Source: Leptolyngbya subtilissima AS-A7
Lineage (GTDB): Bacteria; Cyanobacteriota; Cyanobacteriia; Phormidesmidales; Phormidesmidaceae
DNA: 64,000 nucleotides
Assembly: GCF_039962255.1 (NCBI RefSeq)
Contig: NZ_JAMPKY010000003.1
Coordinates: 124,001 to 188,000 of the forward strand
Reading direction: 5' to 3'
Shown here: piece by piece, positions 24,989-35,620 of the stretch
How positions within the stretch are numbered: position 1 is the stretch's first letter
Layout: the number at the start of each line of letters is the position of its first letter
Translations under genes and position numbers: made by a program
Notes under the pieces: model-generated
Databases searched by the model: none
What the model saw: the letters and a program-made list of their open reading frames with translations, nothing else
Told to the model about the DNA's origin: nothing

Positions 24989-27900
24989 TTGATCGGGCGA
25001 TCGCAGAACTGGGCTACGGATACAGCGATCGCTACCCAATTCCAGGGCCGCGTAGTGAAAAGTCCTCTAAGTTCGAGACCTGCCATCGACTGGGGCGAAG
25101 CTCCAGATGTCTCGGTTTTCTTCGGTCGCGAGGTGGAGATTGCCACCTTGTCGCGATGGGTAGTTGACGATGGCTGTCGCCTGGTCGCGGTGTTGGGCAT
25201 GGGCGGCATCGGCAAAACCACGCTGACCGCCAAGCTGGTCGAAACCCTAGTAGACCTACCCCAGGCTCCCTTTGAGAGAATCATTTGGCGATCGCTACGC
25301 CACGCCCCCAGGCTCGATGAACTGCTCGAAGATCTGGTGGGGTTTGTCTCTGACCAGCACGATACCCGAGGCACGCTAAAACAGCTGCTCTACTGGCTGC
25401 GTCAGACCCGGTGTCTGCTGCTGCTCGACAACATGGAAACCCTGTTGCACGAGGGGGAACGAGCGGGCTATTTTCGCGATGGCTATGAAGACTATGGCGA
25501 TCTGCTACAGCTTGTGGCAGAAACCCGCCACCAAAGCTGTGTGGTGCTAACCAGTCGAGAGCAACCCGCCGTGGTGGGCATGTTGGCCGGTAACGAGTTG
25601 CCGGTGCGATCGCATCTGCTGACAGGCTCCCTAGAAGCGGCCCTTGCTCTGTGTGAGGCCAAAGGGCTAACCGGCTCAGACGCCGAAAAGCGTCAGCTGA
25701 CCCACCGCTATGGCAACAGCCCCCTGGCCTTAAAAATTGTCGCTACCTCGATACAGAGCCTGTTCGACGGAGATATTGCCGAGTTTCTAGCCGAAGACAC
25801 CGTTATTTTCAACGGGTTGCAGCGCCTGCTCGATCAGCAGTTTCGGCGGCTGTCTGAGCTAGAGCGAACGGTTATGTACTGGCTGGCCATCAACCGCGAT
25901 TGGACTTCGATTTCAGAGTTGGTTGCCGATATTCAACCCCCGGCCTCTCGCCCACAGGTGCTAGAAGTTCTAGAGTCATTGCGCTGGAGAAGCCTGATTG
26001 AGACTCAGTCGGGACGCTATAGTCAGCAGCCCGTGGTGATGGAGTACGTGAGCGACCAGCTGATTGAGCAGATTTCCCACGAGTTGGCTAGCGTCGAGCC
26101 AGTTCTGTTTCTGCGCCATGCCCTGCTCAAAACCACCGTCAATGACTACCTGCGCGACAGTCAGAGGCGGCTGATATTGCAGCCGATCGCCCGCCAATTG
26201 AGCCAAACCTTTAGCTCTGAATCGGCTCTAGAGCAGCAAATGCTGCTGCTGCTGGAGAGTGTGCGCGGCCGCGAAACTCAGATGCCAGGCTATGGGGGCG
26301 GCAACTTGATCAATCTCTGTGCTCAGCTTGGCCTTGACTTAGCTGGCTACGATTTTTCTCACCTTAGCCTGCGCCACGCTTGTCTACCCAAGGCCAAGCT
26401 GCACCGGGTCAATTTTACCCAAGCCCATTTTATCCACACGGTCTTTAGTCAGACCTTTAGCAGCATTTTATCCATAGCCTATAGCCCAGACCGCACCCTG
26501 CTGGCAGCTGGAGACAGCAACGGTGGGCTACGGGTGTGGCGACTGGCCGACTATCAGCTGCTTCTCACCGTACAGGGGCACACCGACTGGGCCAAGGCGG
26601 TGGCCTTTAGCCCCGATGGACGCACCTTGGCTAGCGGCGGCGACGATGCCATGATTCATCTGTGGGACATCGCCACGGGCCAGGCGATGCTGACCCTCTC
26701 GGGCCACACTAACTATGTGCAGGCGATCGCCTTTCATCCCCAGGGGCAGCTGGCCAGCGGCAGCCACGACGGCACCCTCAAACTGTGGGATACCCACACC
26801 GGCAACGCCGTGGCGACCCTTGTGGGCCACAGCGCCCCCGTGCGCGCCGTGGCCTTTAGCCCCGACGGCACCTACCTGGCTAGCGGTAGCTCTGACTGCA
26901 CAGTGAAACTTTGGGATGCCGCCACGGGCAGCTGCTTGGGCACTCTGGATGGTCATCGCGATCGCATCTGGACGCTGGCCTGGCATGGGGATAGCAAAAC
27001 CCTGGCCAGCGGCAGCTCCGATAAAACAATTCGGCTGTGGGATGTGGCTACCCAAACCGGCATTCTGACCCTGTATGGCCACAGTCAACCCGTTCTCGCT
27101 GTGGACTTTAGCGCCGACGGCCAGCTGTTGGCTAGCAGCAGCGCTGATCAAACCATCAAACTGTGGGAGATCCCATCGGGCAACGCGCTGCGAACCCTGC
27201 GCGACCACCACGACTGGGTGTGGGCCTTGGCCTTTAACCAGCCACAGTTGGCCAGCGGGGGAGATGACCAGACCCTAAAATTTTGGGATGTGCAGACCGG
27301 CCACTGCCTCAAAACCCTGCGGGGGTTTACCAACCAGATCTTTGCGGTCGCTTTTCATCCCCACCAGCCCTGGTTGGTAAGCGGCAGCCTAGACGGCCTG
27401 GTGCGCCTCTGGAACTGGCAGACCGGGGAAACCCTGGCCACCCTGTCGGGACACAGCCTCTGGGTGCGTGCCACTCAGTTCAGCCCCGATGGCTGCACCC
27501 TGGCCAGTAGCAGCACCGACAAAACGATTCGCCTGTGGCAGGGGGCGCTCGCTCAATCCCCGCGGGAAAGAACCAGCCAAATCTTGCGGGGCCATACCGA
27601 CTCGGTGCGTTCCCTCGCCTGGGACCCCACCAGTCAGTGGCTGGCCAGCGGCAGTGCCGACTGCACCATTCGGCTGTGGCAGGTAGCCACTGGTCAGTGC
27701 CTGCGGGTGTTAAGCGGCCATACAAACAAGGTGCGATCGGTGGCCTGGAATCCGGTGCAGCCCCTGCTAGCCAGCGTCGGCGATGACGAAACCCTGCGGC
27801 TCTGGCATACCGAAACCGGCGAGCAAATGCGGCTGTTGCAGGGCCACGACAAGTGGCTGCTTACCGTCGCCTGGCACCCCAACGGCCGATGGTTGGCCAG

Positions 27901-29266
27901 CGGCGGTGCCGACCAGACTATTCGCCTGTGGGATAGCGCCAGTGGCGAACTGTTGCAGGTCTTTAGGGGCCACCGCAGTCAGGTGCAATCGGTCGTGTTT
28001 AGCCCAGTTGAGCCAATTCTGGCTAGCGCCAGTGGCGACTCTACCATTCGGCTCTGGAGCATTGAGACCGGATCGGTACTGCGCATCCTGGGCGGCCACA
28101 CCAACCAGGTGCAGGCCGTGGCTTTTAGCGCCGATGGGCAAACCCTGGCCAGCAGCAGCAACGACGGCATGATCAAACTCTGGCGCTGTGCTACTGGCGA
28201 GGAGGTGCGATCGCTCCAGCCCGAGCGCCCCTACGAAGGCATGGTGATTACCGGAGTCCAGGGGCTCACCGCTGGCCAGCTGGCGGTGCTGAAGGAACTA
28301 GGGGCCGTTGATCATGCCTCGCCCCCTGAGCTACCGCCCGCGCCGCCCGCTGCCTCAGCCCAACCCGCTGCCGACTCACCATGGGAAACCGCCGCTAGCT
28401 TTCCCAGCCACCTCACCGGCTACGACCCCACACTGGGCTGGAGAGGGCCGATCGCTGAGTCTTCAATCATCGGCGCGTCCTTGACTCCGAGGCCATCAGC
28501 GGTGGGCGGGAGCGCCCCAATTCTAGTTCCGGTAACCGGTCTACAAATACAGCTTTTTGACGGCTTCAGCCTTCGCTATAGCGGCGAGGTCGTGGCCGTC
28601 ACTAGCGAGCGATCGCAGGCCTTACTGGCCTACCTGGTGCTCCACCCCCAGAGTCCCCATCGACGCCAGCAGATGGCCTACTGTCTCTACCCAGACCTCG
28701 GTGAAGCCCAGGCCCGCACGGCCCTGCGCAAAGATCTGTACAACTTGCGGCAGGCGCTGCCTGAGCCAGACTCGTTTTTGCACATTGAGGCCCAGCTGGT
28801 GCAGTGGAAACCAGGGTCTAGCTTTAGCCTCGACGTGGCCGCTTTTGAAGCTGCCCTAGACCGCGCCGAGGCCGCCCCGGCCGAAGACAGGGCCAGTCAG
28901 CAGCACGACCTAGAAGCGGCGATCGCCCACTACAGCGGTGCCTTGCTGCCCCAGCTAGATTATGAGTGGCTAGCGCAGGCTCGAGAACGCCTCCACCAGC
29001 GCTACCTAGAGGCGCTAGATCGTCTCATTGCTGTACTTCAGCACCAGCAGCAGTATCACCAAGCCATTCGCTACGGCCAGCTGCTGCTGCAAACCGACCC
29101 TCTGCGCGAATCGACCTACCAAGCGCTGATGCAGCTCCACCGCCAAAACGGCGATCGCGCCACAGCCATTCAGATCTATCACCAGTGCATGCAGGTCTTG
29201 CAGGATGAGTTGGGCCTCGACCCCAGCGCTGACACTCAGCGGATTTATCAAACCCTGCTGCAATAG
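24989..29266 (+). CDS. STAND ATPase (NB-ARC type) with 14 WD40 repeats and C-terminal SARP/BTAD module
   Basis: A 1425-residue multidomain signalling protein. DWGEAPDVSVFFGRE (about 34-48) leads into the NTPase with P-loop GMGGIGKTT (70-78) and Walker B-like CLLLLDNME (about 146). Fourteen WD40 units from about residue 490 to 1073 (each ending in xLWD-like strands) would make two seven-bladed propellers. A Pro-rich linker (about 1074-1185) is followed by a winged-helix-like segment (LQIQLFDGFSLRYSGE, LRKDLYNLRQAL) and a BTAD helical domain (DVAAFEAALDRAEAA, LYHQ-type TPR helices, LQDELGLDPSADTQRIYQ) to the end. In Streptomyces AfsR-like proteins the SARP part is N-terminal; here the order is reversed. 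The start is uncertain: TTG 24989 or GTG 25055 in frame, ATG 24982 out of frame. Confidence 0.85.
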   Translation: MIGRSQNWATDTAIATQFQGRVVKSPLSSRPAIDWGEAPDVSVFFGREVEIATLSRWVVDDGCRLVAVLGMGGIGKTTLTAKLVETLVDLPQAPFERIIWRSLRHAPRLDELLEDLVGFVSDQHDTRGTLKQLLYWLRQTRCLLLLDNMETLLHEGERAGYFRDGYEDYGDLLQLVAETRHQSCVVLTSREQPAVVGMLAGNELPVRSHLLTGSLEAALALCEAKGLTGSDAEKRQLTHRYGNSPLALKIVATSIQSLFDGDIAEFLAEDTVIFNGLQRLLDQQFRRLSELERTVMYWLAINRDWTSISELVADIQPPASRPQVLEVLESLRWRSLIETQSGRYSQQPVVMEYVSDQLIEQISHELASVEPVLFLRHALLKTTVNDYLRDSQRRLILQPIARQLSQTFSSESALEQQMLLLLESVRGRETQMPGYGGGNLINLCAQLGLDLAGYDFSHLSLRHACLPKAKLHRVNFTQAHFIHTVFSQTFSSILSIAYSPDRTLLAAGDSNGGLRVWRLADYQLLLTVQGHTDWAKAVAFSPDGRTLASGGDDAMIHLWDIATGQAMLTLSGHTNYVQAIAFHPQGQLASGSHDGTLKLWDTHTGNAVATLVGHSAPVRAVAFSPDGTYLASGSSDCTVKLWDAATGSCLGTLDGHRDRIWTLAWHGDSKTLASGSSDKTIRLWDVATQTGILTLYGHSQPVLAVDFSADGQLLASSSADQTIKLWEIPSGNALRTLRDHHDWVWALAFNQPQLASGGDDQTLKFWDVQTGHCLKTLRGFTNQIFAVAFHPHQPWLVSGSLDGLVRLWNWQTGETLATLSGHSLWVRATQFSPDGCTLASSSTDKTIRLWQGALAQSPRERTSQILRGHTDSVRSLAWDPTSQWLASGSADCTIRLWQVATGQCLRVLSGHTNKVRSVAWNPVQPLLASVGDDETLRLWHTETGEQMRLLQGHDKWLLTVAWHPNGRWLASGGADQTIRLWDSASGELLQVFRGHRSQVQSVVFSPVEPILASASGDSTIRLWSIETGSVLRILGGHTNQVQAVAFSADGQTLASSSNDGMIKLWRCATGEEVRSLQPERPYEGMVITGVQGLTAGQLAVLKELGAVDHASPPELPPAPPAASAQPAADSPWETAASFPSHLTGYDPTLGWRGPIAESSIIGASLTPRPSAVGGSAPILVPVTGLQIQLFDGFSLRYSGEVVAVTSERSQALLAYLVLHPQSPHRRQQMAYCLYPDLGEAQARTALRKDLYNLRQALPEPDSFLHIEAQLVQWKPGSSFSLDVAAFEAALDRAEAAPAEDRASQQHDLEAAIAHYSGALLPQLDYEWLAQARERLHQRYLEALDRLIAVLQHQQQYHQAIRYGQLLLQTDPLRESTYQALMQLHRQNGDRATAIQIYHQCMQVLQDELGLDPSADTQRIYQTLLQ

Positions 29267-29328
29267 ATCAACTTCACAGCTACAGCCGTTGCTCCATTCA
29301 CTTCACTAAGACATTAGGCATCTGTGAA

Positions 29329-29358
29329 AACGTTCAAATGTTTGGACGTTTATATTTT
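29329..29358 (+). terminator. Imperfect palindrome and T-rich tail after the STAND gene
   Basis: AACGTTCAAA (29329-29338) and TTTGGACGTT (29341-29350) pair with one mismatch around TG and are followed by TATATTTT. It could be a terminator for the STAND gene. The near-perfect 22-bp dyad could equally be an operator. Confidence 0.45.
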
Positions 29359-29431
29359 GCAATGTTTTGACTGAACTGGTGACGGCGGTAACGCCTTGTA
29401 TTTACTGCCGTTTACCCCTAGCCAGCCCGAC

Positions 29432-29472
29432 AGAACGCTGCTGGAACGCCCTGGAACGGTTTAGTAACGCCT
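29432..29472 (+). promoter_or_regulatory. Four helically phased AACG direct repeats (candidate SARP operator)
   Basis: AACG occurs at 29434, 29445, 29455 and 29466, i.e. spaced 11, 10 and 11 bp, in the contexts AGAACGCT, GGAACGCC, GGAACGGT and GTAACGCC. A further GGTAACGCC is at 29387-29395. SARP-family regulators are known to bind heptamer direct repeats one helical turn apart. This array lies about 90 bp before the ATG at 29562. Confidence 0.5.
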
Positions 29473-29561
29473 CGCCCCTTAGGGTGGAACCAACCTGATA
29501 GATGACTCAGTTCGATAGCTACACCTGAACTGATTTATTTAGCCCCCAAGGAGCCAAATTC

Positions 29562-30104
29562 ATGAAACGCTTTGCACTGTCTATATTAGCTGCCTCCGTT
29601 GCGGCGATCGCGATTGCTCCCGTAGCCTATGCGGTTGACTTTGATCAGCTACGCCAGGAAAACCTCGATAAAGATGCCGTTGATTTCGATCGCACTCGTC
29701 GCGAGAACCTGGAGAAATCCAACGCGGTTGACTTCGATCAGCTACGCCAGGAAAACCTCGACAAAGATGCTGCTAACTTCGATCGCACTCGTCGCGAGAA
29801 TCTGGAGAAATCTAACGCGGTTAACTTCGATCGGTTACGCCAGGAAAACCTCGAGAAAAGTGCCATTGACTTTGACAGCGTCCGTCGCGAGAACCTAGAG
29901 AAATCCAACGTGATTGATTTCAAGCAGCTGCGCCAGGAAAACCTCGAAAAAAGTGCTGTTGACTTCGAGCGCCTGCGTCTCGAGAACCTGGAAAAATCTA
30001 GCGCGGTTGATTTCGAGCAGCTGCGTCAGGAAAACCTGGAAAAAAGTGCCGTCAGTTCTGATGAGCTGAGGCGGGAACATCTAGGGTTCGCGCTCGCTTA
30101 CTAG
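29562..30104 (+). CDS. Secreted tandem-repeat protein (DFxxLRxENLEKS repeats)
   Basis: No known family recognised. A 180-residue protein with a clear signal peptide (MKRFALSILAASVAAIAIAP, cleavage near VAYA, residue 24). Almost all of the mature part is ten copies of a 15- or 16-residue unit, consensus AVDFDQLRQENLDKD alternating with VDFDRTRRENLEKSN. The last copy is degenerate (VSSDELRREHLGFALAY). The repeats are highly charged and should form helices with a regular Asp/Arg/Glu/Lys pattern. AAGGAG at 29548-29553 gives an eight-base spacing to the ATG, and the gene is preceded by the phased AACG array. Function unknown; a periplasmic or extracellular structural, buffering or ion-binding role is only a guess. 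Confidence 0.75.
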   Translation: MKRFALSILAASVAAIAIAPVAYAVDFDQLRQENLDKDAVDFDRTRRENLEKSNAVDFDQLRQENLDKDAANFDRTRRENLEKSNAVNFDRLRQENLEKSAIDFDSVRRENLEKSNVIDFKQLRQENLEKSAVDFERLRLENLEKSSAVDFEQLRQENLEKSAVSSDELRREHLGFALAY

Positions 30105-30919: not shown

Positions 30920-31157
30920 GAAATTAGCTCGCTCGACCTAGCCTCTGAATTTTTAGGTTTAGCAAAGTTGCCCTTAGCTGGCGACTGCGAAACCCACCTA
31001 GCACTTAGCGTCTTCCATCGGAAGACCGCCAAACCTTAGGGGCTGTGTTTCCCCTTGGGATAGTTTCGCCGTTGTCTTTGAGCAGGGAACGGCGATCGCA
31101 AAGCAACATCCCACGCCCTGCACACCCGACTTATTTACATCAAAAGGAAATTTGATC

Positions 31158-33221
31158 ATGGCGCTTATTACTGGCAGCAACGACAGCGACTTTGGCACCT
31201 CTGGCCTGGGCAATTTGCTCGGCACCGAAGATATCGACACAATTTTTGGCTTAGACGGGGACGACCTGATCGCTAGCTTGGGTGGCAACGACACACTGCT
31301 GGCTGGCGCAGGCAATGACTCAGTTTTCGGTGGCGATGGCGATGACCTGGCTTTTCTCGGTGATGGCAACGACCTCTTTGGCTGGAACCCTGGTGAGGAC
31401 AATGACACCATCGAAGGCGGCAATGGGCTCGACACCATGCTCTTTAACGGTGCCAATGTCGCTGAACAGGTTGACATGTCTGCGGTGGGCGAGCGGCTAC
31501 GCTTTTTCCGCGACATAGCCAACGTGGTGATGGATACGAACGATCTGGAGCAGGTCGACTTTAACGCCCTAGGCGGAGTCGACAACATCACCATCAACGA
31601 CCTGACGGGCACCGACGTCAAGCAGATCAACCTCAATCTGGCCGCCGCTGGCTCAACGGCTGGCGATGGAGCGATCGACACCATCATTCTCAATGGCTCG
31701 GGCAATGGCGATGCGATCAAAGTCAGCGGGGGTGCGGGCAAAACCACTGTCAAAGGCCTAGCTGCTCAGGTGGACATTGTGGGCGGTGAAGGCGAGCGCG
31801 ATCGCCTCGTCATCAACCCGTTGTCGGGGGTTGATCAGGTCACCGTTGACGACCTGACCGGGGCCGGGTTGCAGGCCGTCGAAGTCAATCTAGCGGCCTC
31901 GGGCTCAACCACCGGCGATGGCGCACCCGATCTCACTACCGTCAATGCTTCTCACCGCAACGATGTGCTCAACATCAGCGGCATTGGCAACAGCGCCACG
32001 GTGTCGGGGCTGGGGGCCGAGGTCAAAGTTTTGGGGGCTGACCTGGGGCAAGACCTGCTAGTGGTAAATGGCTTAGACGGCAACGACACGATTGACGCCA
32101 CCAATCTCCTGGCTGACCCCAGCAGTTCTCCAGCGAGGGCCATGCAGATTTTGCTGGATGGCGGCAAAGGCAATGACTTGCTGCTGGGCGGTGCCGCCGA
32201 TGACACGCTGCTGGGCGGCGACGGCAACGACTTTGTCGATGGCAAGCGCGGCAACGACAGGGCGTTCTTAGGGTCGGGCAACGATGCCTTTCTCTGGAAC
32301 CCCGGCGAGGGAAACGACACCATCGACGGTGGCGCCGGCTATGACACGATGCTCTTCAACGGCGCCAATGCCAATGAAATCATTGGCATGCTAGCCAATG
32401 GCGAGCGGTTTACCTTCCTGCGCAATGTTGGTGCCGTGGTAATGGATACCAACAACTTGGAGCAGGTAGACTTCCGGGCCTTTGGGGGCGCCGACACCAT
32501 CAATATCAATGACCTGACCGGCACCGACATTAAGCAAATCAACCTGAATTTGGGCATTTCGGGTACCACTGGAGGCGATGGCGAAATCGACACCATCAAC
32601 ATCGCCGGTTCAGCCCGTCACGATGCTATTCGCATCGCCACCTCAGGTCACGATGTAGTGGTCTCTGGGCTCACCGCCGACGTGTCAATTTTCCGGGCCG
32701 ATGCCAGCGATCGCCTGCTGGTGTTCGGTGGCGACGGCAACGACCAAATCAAAGCCGACCACCTGGATCTAAACCGCATTCAGCTCACTATCGAAGGGGG
32801 CGCTGGCCACGACAACATGGTCGGCAGCGTCAACAGCGACACCGTGCTCGGCGGGTTGGGGAACGATAATCTGCTCGGCGGCAAGGGTGCAGACATCCTA
32901 ACGGGGAATGAGGGCAGCGACTCCTTCCGCTTTGACCACCTAGATCAGGCGGGTGACACGATTACTGACTTTGTCGCCGCTGACGACCAAATCCTGATTC
33001 GGGCGGGCTTTGGCGGCGGGTTAAATGCCGGTGCCGCGATTTCAGCTAGTCAGTTTGTGCTGGGTGCTGCCGCCGCTGATGGCAGCGATCGATTCATCTA
33101 CAACAACACCTCCGGCGAGCTGTTCTTTGACCGCGATGGCAACGGTAGCCATGCCCAGGTGCTGCTGACCACGCTGGGCGGTGCGCCGACGATTAGCAAC
33201 GCCGACATTGTCGTAGTTTAA
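31158..33221 (+). CDS. RTX-type calcium-binding repeat protein
   Basis: ATG 31158 follows AAAGGAAA with proper spacing and is preferred to an upstream in-frame TTG. That gives 687 residues. Three clusters of GGxGxDxxx nonapeptides are visible (about 35-75, 345-385 and 540-575). An internal duplication of about 240 residues repeats the block FLWNPGEGNDTIDGG ... DTMLFNGAN ... EQVDF ... INDLTGTD. There is no N-terminal signal peptide. The C-terminal ~95 residues (DSFRFDHLDQAGDTITDF ... NADIVVV) match those of the protein at 33953 and probably carry the type I secretion signal. No HlyB/HlyD/TolC genes are in the window. Confidence 0.87.
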   Translation: MALITGSNDSDFGTSGLGNLLGTEDIDTIFGLDGDDLIASLGGNDTLLAGAGNDSVFGGDGDDLAFLGDGNDLFGWNPGEDNDTIEGGNGLDTMLFNGANVAEQVDMSAVGERLRFFRDIANVVMDTNDLEQVDFNALGGVDNITINDLTGTDVKQINLNLAAAGSTAGDGAIDTIILNGSGNGDAIKVSGGAGKTTVKGLAAQVDIVGGEGERDRLVINPLSGVDQVTVDDLTGAGLQAVEVNLAASGSTTGDGAPDLTTVNASHRNDVLNISGIGNSATVSGLGAEVKVLGADLGQDLLVVNGLDGNDTIDATNLLADPSSSPARAMQILLDGGKGNDLLLGGAADDTLLGGDGNDFVDGKRGNDRAFLGSGNDAFLWNPGEGNDTIDGGAGYDTMLFNGANANEIIGMLANGERFTFLRNVGAVVMDTNNLEQVDFRAFGGADTININDLTGTDIKQINLNLGISGTTGGDGEIDTINIAGSARHDAIRIATSGHDVVVSGLTADVSIFRADASDRLLVFGGDGNDQIKADHLDLNRIQLTIEGGAGHDNMVGSVNSDTVLGGLGNDNLLGGKGADILTGNEGSDSFRFDHLDQAGDTITDFVAADDQILIRAGFGGGLNAGAAISASQFVLGAAAADGSDRFIYNNTSGELFFDRDGNGSHAQVLLTTLGGAPTISNADIVVV

Positions 33222-33952: not shown

Positions 33953-35620
33953 ATGGCCCCTACAATTTACGCAGAAACCCACACCCAACAAGTCTTGTTG
34001 GGCATGGAAGCCAATAACATTAGCCCTGGGCTTGTTCAGCAGGATTTGTTTTTCGGACGCAATATTGCCGGTGATGGTGAAGTTTCAGAGGCCGATTTTC
34101 AGGCGTTTATCGATACCGAAATCACACCGCGATTCCCCAACGGCCTGACGGTCTACGGCGCCGATGGGCAGTTCCTAGACAGCACTGGCAGTCAAATTCA
34201 AGAACCCAGCCAGGTGGTCACTCTCATCTTTGAGAACACTTTGGAAAACCAGGCAGAAGTTGACCAGATCATCGAAACCTATAAGCAGCAGTTTCAGCAA
34301 GAATCAGTTTTAGAAATTGTCAATGCCGATTATCTTAAGGTTGGCTTTGACGAAGCTGACGACCTGATTGAAAATGACCCGATTCCAGAGCTGATTCAAG
34401 AGGATCTGTACTTTGGCCGCAACATTGCTGGGGGCGGCCAGGTCTCAGAGACTGAGTTTCAAGCTTTCATCGACACCGAAATTACACCGCGATTTCCCAA
34501 TGGGTTAACGGCCTATGATGCCGATGGGCAGTTCTTGGACAGCGCTGGAAACTTGGTTCAAGAACCCAGTCAGGTGGTCTCGCTCATTTTTGAAGACACG
34601 GCGGCAAATGAGCAAAGTATCGATCAAATTATTGCTGCCTACAAGCAACAGTTCCAGCAAGAATCGGTTTTAGAAGTCGTCAACGAAGCTGTCAAAGTAG
34701 GCTTCGGACAATCGGAAGATCTAATCGACAATGACCCGATTCCAGAATTAATCCAAACTGATCTATACTTTGGCCGCAACATTGCCGAGGGTGGTGAAGT
34801 CTCAGAGGCAGAGTTTCAGCAGTTTTTAGATCAGGAGATTACCCCACGATTTCCCGATGGGCTCACGGTTTACGATGCTGATGGACAGTTCCTCAGCAGC
34901 ACAAATGCCCTGGTTAAAGAGCCTAGTAAAATCGTTTCGCTCATCTTTGAAGACACCGTAGAAAACGAAGCGGCGATCGACCAGATTATCCAGGCCTACA
35001 AGCAAGAATTTGACCAAGAATCGGTTTTACAGGTTGTTGACGAAGACATTCAGGTCGCCTTTGACACTGACACGATCTTCCTAGGCGATTTGAACGATAG
35101 ATTTGGGGGTTTCAAAGACTCCAACGACATCATTGATGGCCAGGGCGGCAGCGATCGCATTCGAGGTCTAAGCGGAGATGATCTGATACGCGGTGGGGCC
35201 GGCCACGATCGGCTCAAGGGTGATTCTGGTGATGACATTTTGCTCGGTGAAGACGGCAACGACACCCTCCTTGGCGGCAAAGGAATCGATACTTTAACCG
35301 GTGGCGCGGGTTGTGACGCATTCCGCTTTGACAGCTTGCATCAAGCCGGTGACAGGATCACTGATTTTGCTAGCGAAGGCGATCGCATCCTAATTCGAGC
35401 AGCAGGTTTTGGTGGCGGATTGGTAGCGGGCGTCGCCATTTCGCCAGAGCAATTTCGCTTAGGCACAGCGGCTGTCGATGGCAAAGATCGCTTTATCTAC
35501 AACAATCTGTCAGGCGAATTGTTCTTTGACCCCGATGGTAATGGCTGCCAAGCCCAAGTGCTATTGGCCAAGCTTAGCGGTGCGCCCGCTCTAAGTAACG
35601 CTGATATTGTCGTGGTCTAG
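33953..35620 (+). CDS. Triple DUF3574 protein fused to RTX calcium-binding C terminus
   Basis: A 555-residue protein. Three tandem copies of a roughly 115-residue domain each read DLYFGRNIAGGG-VSE-FQAFIDTEITPRFPNGLT-YDADGQFL-EPSQVVSLIFEDT-IDQIIAAYKQQF-QESVL (starting near residues 25, 145 and 263). They match the DUF3574 pattern of small secreted single-domain proteins. The region from about 400 is RTX: GGxGxDxx repeats (DIIDGQGGSDRIRGL, DDILLGEDGNDTLLGG), then a C-terminal cassette of about 95 residues ending NADIVVV like the neighbour at 31158. No signal peptide, so export by type I secretion is inferred. DUF3574 has no established function. Confidence 0.82.
   Translation: MAPTIYAETHTQQVLLGMEANNISPGLVQQDLFFGRNIAGDGEVSEADFQAFIDTEITPRFPNGLTVYGADGQFLDSTGSQIQEPSQVVTLIFENTLENQAEVDQIIETYKQQFQQESVLEIVNADYLKVGFDEADDLIENDPIPELIQEDLYFGRNIAGGGQVSETEFQAFIDTEITPRFPNGLTAYDADGQFLDSAGNLVQEPSQVVSLIFEDTAANEQSIDQIIAAYKQQFQQESVLEVVNEAVKVGFGQSEDLIDNDPIPELIQTDLYFGRNIAEGGEVSEAEFQQFLDQEITPRFPDGLTVYDADGQFLSSTNALVKEPSKIVSLIFEDTVENEAAIDQIIQAYKQEFDQESVLQVVDEDIQVAFDTDTIFLGDLNDRFGGFKDSNDIIDGQGGSDRIRGLSGDDLIRGGAGHDRLKGDSGDDILLGEDGNDTLLGGKGIDTLTGGAGCDAFRFDSLHQAGDRITDFASEGDRILIRAAGFGGGLVAGVAISPEQFRLGTAAVDGKDRFIYNNLSGELFFDPDGNGCQAQVLLAKLSGAPALSNADIVVV

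Follow-up and report, generated by a model that had tools for sequence, protein, structure and literature searches.

SARP proteins bind heptamer direct repeats one helical turn apart near the -35 region, and to our knowledge they have been known almost only as activators of antibiotic production in Streptomyces. The SARP operators that we found in the literature searched come from that genus as well. AfsR of Streptomyces coelicolor binds two 11-bp repeats at the afsS promoter, from -40 to -30 and from -29 to -19, touching the first 8 bp of both, and where the -35 element is poor it gives sigma region 4 a place to dock (PMC10936776). The operator of PimR from Streptomyces natalensis consists of three heptamers (CGGCAAG) with 4-bp spacers, has no overlap with the -35 element, and serves a regulator of polyene synthesis; PimR also binds a secondary operator with a 10-bp unit (PMC5930380). 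For cyanobacteria, an older paper noted no associated regulators in natural-product clusters (PMC2799420). In the cyanobacterium Moorena producens, a SARP-family gene, ORF 2, does lie close to the hectoramide B cluster, and the part of that source consulted was not found to describe its operator or target (PMC10949194). No operator of any cyanobacterial SARP was found in the literature searched, most subscription journals lying outside the search.

The locus described here lies in a window of 64 kb, by which we mean the whole stretch of DNA analyzed. A regulator gene with a SARP domain and a gene for a secreted repeat protein are separated by a 295-bp spacer, and the features of the region are as follows.

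24989 to 29266, + strand: gene for a STAND (NB-ARC)-WD40-SARP regulator of 1425 aa (Pfam NB-ARC 1.8e-10, WD40, BTAD 7e-27).
28547 to 29263, + strand: C-terminal SARP domain, OmpR-type winged helix plus BTAD (AlphaFold pLDDT 94, Foldseek, phmmer AfsR 4.8e-9).
29327 to 29358, + strand: hairpin AAACGTTC...GGACGTTT and then a T-rich tail ATATTTTG, after the SARP stop (fold of -10.4 kcal/mol for 29320-29365).
29432 to 29437, + strand: putative operator repeat 1, AGAACG (from array and footprint).
29443 to 29448, + strand: putative operator repeat 2, GGAACG, step 11 (from array and footprint).
29453 to 29458, + strand: putative operator repeat 3, GGAACG, step 10; upstream half-site in the AfsR register, -40 to -33, TGGAACGG (from array, footprint and -10 register).
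29464 to 29469, + strand: putative operator repeat 4, GTAACG, step 11; downstream half-site in the AfsR register, -29 to -22, AGTAACGC (from array, footprint and -10 register).
29480 to 29485, + strand: predicted -10 hexamer TAGGGT, 10 bp past the last repeat (from alignments of homologous sites and boxes).
29492, + strand: predicted transcription start, with the -10 hexamer taken as -12 to -7.
29548 to 29553, + strand: ribosome-binding site AAGGAG (from sequence).
29562 to 30104, + strand: putative target gene, encoding a secreted 180-aa protein with F-D-x-x-R-x-E-N-L-(D/E)-K repeats and a signal-peptide-like N terminus (from sequence).

An earlier note on this DNA had reported AACG at 29434, 29445, 29455 and 29466, in steps of 11, 10 and 11 bp, and these positions proved exact; all four lie in the spacer, past the stop codon of the SARP gene (24989-29266) and ahead of the ATG at 29562. 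AACG was the sole tetramer with four copies at 10/11-bp steps on the + strand of the window, where random sequence (30 windows from a first-order Markov model) would be expected to yield 0.03 such arrays per window, and the probability of any tetramer array inside the spacer was 0.00065. Pairs of AACG about 11 bp apart occurred at chance level (5 seen versus 6 expected), and the evidential weight therefore lies in the four-fold array. The word itself is better written as GGAACG in an 11-bp unit.

Two neighboring sequences were considered as further operator elements and rejected. The word GGTAACGCC, which the same note had added to the array, is indeed present at 29387-29395, but it does not belong to the operator: it is absent in three of the related genomes (G007, G008 and G017), and where a similar word is present it stands at a varying distance from the array (44, 44, 45 and 43 bp). 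The AAACGTTC/GGACGTTT inverted repeat at 29327 resembles a hairpin terminator and is poorly kept in G007; from its sequence, the hairpin with its T-rich tail is likely a weak terminator between the SARP and target transcripts.

The predicted promoter that follows the array resembles that of afsS, which likewise has a poor -35 and a suboptimal -10 (PMC10936776). TAGGGT at 29480 is weak, and no good -35 precedes it, the hexamer at 17-bp spacing being CGGTTT. Reckoned from this predicted -10, the two promoter-proximal half-sites are in the same register as those of AfsR at afsS. Like the afs box and the PimR operator, the array has direct repeats of about one helical turn, its steps of 11, 10 and 11 bp fitting the direct repeats 11 or 22 bp apart of SARP operators. 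The one 10-bp step, between repeats 2 and 3, is a departure of the window lineage from a strict 11-bp period, for which the 10-bp unit that PimR binds provides a precedent (PMC5930380). The GGAACG box differs from the afs box in its word, GGAACG in place of the afs word, and in having three to four repeats rather than two.

The adjacent protein contains the arrangement that marks a SARP, an OmpR-type winged helix followed by a BTAD (7e-27). The best Foldseek matches of the modeled domain were AfsR (8k60/8hvr, TM 0.82-0.84) and EmbR of Mycobacterium tuberculosis (TM 0.79-0.81), these being the best folds over 238 columns, and the domain is thus predicted to fold like AfsR. A phmmer search with the winged helix alone found no relative. 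EmbR shares the winged-helix and BTAD fold, but it has an FHA domain where the window protein has STAND/WD40, and it serves other targets in another organism. AfsR is, like the window protein, a large SARP with a STAND/NOD ATPase part (PMC10936776). The SARP domain of AfsR is N-terminal, before NOD and TPR, whereas here it is C-terminal, after NB-ARC and WD40, and we therefore class the window protein as a variant of the AfsR-type large SARP. The residues by which AfsR contacts the DNA backbone, R87 and R94, are retained as R61, which is invariant, and R68, which is found in at least 90% of 24 sequences. In contrast, the base-contacting T88 and R92 of AfsR align with K62 and N66, which fits a different repeat word. 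We also considered whether helix residue 66 specifies the letters of the box one to one, and dropped the idea, as N, Y and H all occur with GGAACG, R occurs with GGGACG/GAGACG or GGATCG, and the cases are too few.

We then searched related genomes for the array, the closest SARP-bearing relatives of the window organism being Nodosilinea strains. The exact array AACG-N7-AACG-N6-AACG-N7-AACG was found in 7 of 59 genomes, all seven of which carry the SARP gene at 82% identity or more. It occurs once per genome (G000, for example, has one SARP gene and one exact array) except in G007, where the SARP/repeat-protein locus is found with identical matches on contigs G007:C27 and G007:C34, from duplication or assembly redundancy. 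Unvarying in the seven orthologous promoters are GAACG, GGAACG, GGAACG, TTTAGTAACGCCTCG and TTAGGGT. To the left of the box, G008 and G017 have a spacer unrelated to the one in the window, and the box is intact in both; in G008 the SARP gene and the box are about 1.7 kb apart with another gene between them, and both box and target promoter are again intact. That intervening gene has a weak match to sulfate permeases and its own divergent box (AGAACG, TGAACG, GGAACG, N10, TAGGTT). This second, divergent box (L168:12177- and L170:6364-) stands before the sulfate-permease-like gene in G008 and before only a short ORF in G017. The two other close SARP orthologues are in G024, which has a variant box, and in G026, where the contig ends inside the SARP gene; beside a second SARP of G026 that adjoins a repeat-protein gene, no GGAACG triplet was found. 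One-mismatch matches to the four-repeat pattern in G050, G045, G001, G002 and G037 were taken as chance, four of these genomes having no SARP match and the fifth having its SARP on another contig.

The earlier note had tied the repeats to the gene pair, and they are kept wherever the SARP/repeat-protein pair is kept, the four AACG being invariant in all seven genomes, two of them with an unrelated flanking spacer. For the array as a product of chance, or of tandem duplication devoid of regulatory meaning, only the shortness of AACG speaks. The array is above chance expectation, its step size and its distance to the -10 are fixed across loci, and its conservation despite turnover of the flanking spacer refutes such an origin, to which we give a negligible probability.

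The G024 locus differs in its target. Here the SARP domain is 74% identical, and the box, directly after the SARP stop, reads ATCG, AACG, AACG, AACG at steps of 11, 11 and 11 bp, followed by N10-TAGGGT. The gene behind it encodes an Rv2258c-like SAM methyltransferase in place of the repeat protein, and a search of the other nine same-genus genomes yielded no orthologue of this enzyme. Sequence common to G024 and the repeat-protein promoters continues through the -10 to CCAACCTGATAG and ends there. The target has been exchanged in G024, with box and -10 kept and the gene replaced.

The repeat-protein gene, with its FDQLRQENLDK-type repeats, has paralogues in loci without a SARP (upstream of the matches L005, L008, L010, L013, L017, L024, L026 and L030). 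These have a different phased promoter, with TCAG at -17, -28, -39, -61 and -70 from TATAGG and TTAAG near -50, and the TCAG array is probably the box of an OmpR/PhoB-type activator. The 5' leader of the paralogues is similar to that of the window despite the other promoter (GACTCA-GTTGAT versus GACTCAGTTCGAT). On the simplest reading, a gene once controlled by another regulator acquired the SARP box. Two genes for RTX-repeat proteins also lie near downstream in the window (31152-33221 and 33953-35620), one of them with three DUF3574 stretches.

We extended the search beyond the genus. Among 65 genomes of the order, the gap to TAGGGT was exactly 10 in all 12 homologous sites, although gaps of 4 to 18 were allowed; three of these sites, from another genus (G029, G070 and G074), all lie close to SARP genes and precede a methyltransferase of the same type. 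From named genomes, 80 SARP loci were taken, and the cyanobacterial ones among them contained 21 GGAACG triplets at 10/11-bp steps, versus 0 to 3 for eight other step settings. Seventeen boxes were picked from SARP loci with no reference to the -10, and in 17 of 17 TAnnnT follows exactly 10 bp after the last repeat. The 8-bp unit GGAACGCn accordingly ends 8 bp before TAnnnT in every one, in agreement with the approximately 8 bp between the 3' repeat and the -10 in SARP operators. Boxes with this fixed -10 distance also adjoin divergent SARP genes of other families. The consensus over the 17 boxes is (G/A)GAACG, and the steps are 11/11(/11) in nearly all boxes outside the window clade.

A class-wide definition of two repeats plus the -10 was then applied to 390 genomes and found in 20, of which 17 have a SARP match as against 78 of the 390 overall (Fisher 2e-10, a value that overstates independence because the genomes are related). 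Within SARP genomes, 24 of 33 sites fall within 10 kb of a SARP gene, counts that are dependent by descent; seven of the remaining nine are on other contigs, one is at 13 kb and one at 1.4 Mb. The reversed control pattern gave about 11 scattered matches. The targets are mostly the same type of methyltransferase, followed by secreted repeat proteins, PPC/RTX-type proteins and GNAT enzymes. In one genome, G157 (L270-L273), there are at least five boxes, before genes for a PPC-like protein, a membrane protein, a methyltransferase, a small protein and a secreted repeat protein (MNRFILASLSVLALSAVAAPS..FEQERQDTLN). The secreted repeat proteins of the window and G157, both repetitive, match with an E value of 9e-7. 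A degenerate box in Tolypothrix sp. FACHB-123 (L176:14044+) lies about 3.3 kb from a SARP domain, before a condensation/PapA_C-type acyltransferase gene.

Direct repeats spaced by about a helical turn are, as is generally known, also bound by OmpR-family response regulators, and a box of that kind with another sequence (TCAG from TATAGG) precedes the paralogous repeat-protein genes, so that another OmpR/PhoB-family regulator might control the repeat-protein gene with the SARP gene as a bystander. We hold this to be very unlikely, as the GGAACG box tracks the presence of SARPs across genomes, adjoins SARP genes before targets as unrelated as methyltransferase, GNAT and PPC-domain proteins, and in G024 remains beside the SARP gene in front of a different target. 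The box does not have a single cognate SARP, however. G074 has kept the box and lost the C-terminal-type SARP, an N-terminal-type SARP starts beside the box, and GGAACG boxes occur at other loci whose SARPs share its helix residues (K62/Y66); judged from these sequences, the N-terminal type may read the GGAACG box as well. Just after the SARP stop in Nodosilinea nodulosa PCC 7104 (L212/L085) is GGACGAT-TCCC-GGACGAT-TTTA-GGACAGG, an 11-bp repeat of another word adjoining a SARP with a different recognition helix (R62/E66).

Conservation, linkage to SARPs and the fixed distance to the -10 thus support the earlier note's proposal that the array is the operator of the adjacent STAND-SARP protein and the gene at 29562 its target. 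The four repeats are very probably the operator at which this STAND-WD40-SARP activator switches on the secreted repeat-protein gene, as one case of a general cyanobacterial SARP promoter with three to four GGAACG at 11-bp steps and the last CG 10 bp before TAnnnT. We infer that the STAND/WD40 part would sense a signal, upon which SARP domains would bind the DNA side by side on one face, one per 11-bp repeat. The promoter-proximal repeats, at -40 to -33 and -29 to -22 where AfsR binds afsS, would dock sigma region 4 and RNA polymerase in place of the missing -35, the two repeats farther upstream would add protomers and cooperativity, and the bound SARP would switch on the gene at 29562. That the array binds the SARP but represses, or regulates the SARP gene instead of the secreted protein, might be suggested by the divergent intergenic boxes near the SARP start in some relatives (e.g., G074, G157 and G174). 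In the window, however, the box lies on the downstream side of the SARP gene, the promoter of which is about 4.5 kb away and has no GGAACG triplet before it, and the box occupies the position of the AfsR activator at a promoter with a weak -10 and no -35; we consider this possibility very unlikely as well.

More broadly, we consider it probable that STAND-coupled SARP sensors, with the SARP domain at either end, read one GGAACG box across the cyanobacteria and switch on mostly extracellular or modifying products, such as secreted repeat proteins, PPC/RTX-type secreted proteins and Rv2258c-like methyltransferases, and that in Nodosilinea a secreted-protein gene with paralogues under a different regulator came to be joined to a ready-made box, a system that we did not find described in the literature searched. 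The class-wide operator and the rewired target are the main points of interest. The likeness to afsS suggests that the AfsR promoter geometry has been kept across phyla, and G024 offers a clean natural case of promoter exchange, with box and -10 retained and another gene as the target. STAND proteins being sensors, the secretion of the targets hints that the system responds to a signal from outside the cell. Such a box, recognizable in the sequence by its fixed spacing from the -10, would supply candidate regulons for many uncharacterized cyanobacterial STAND-SARP sensors.
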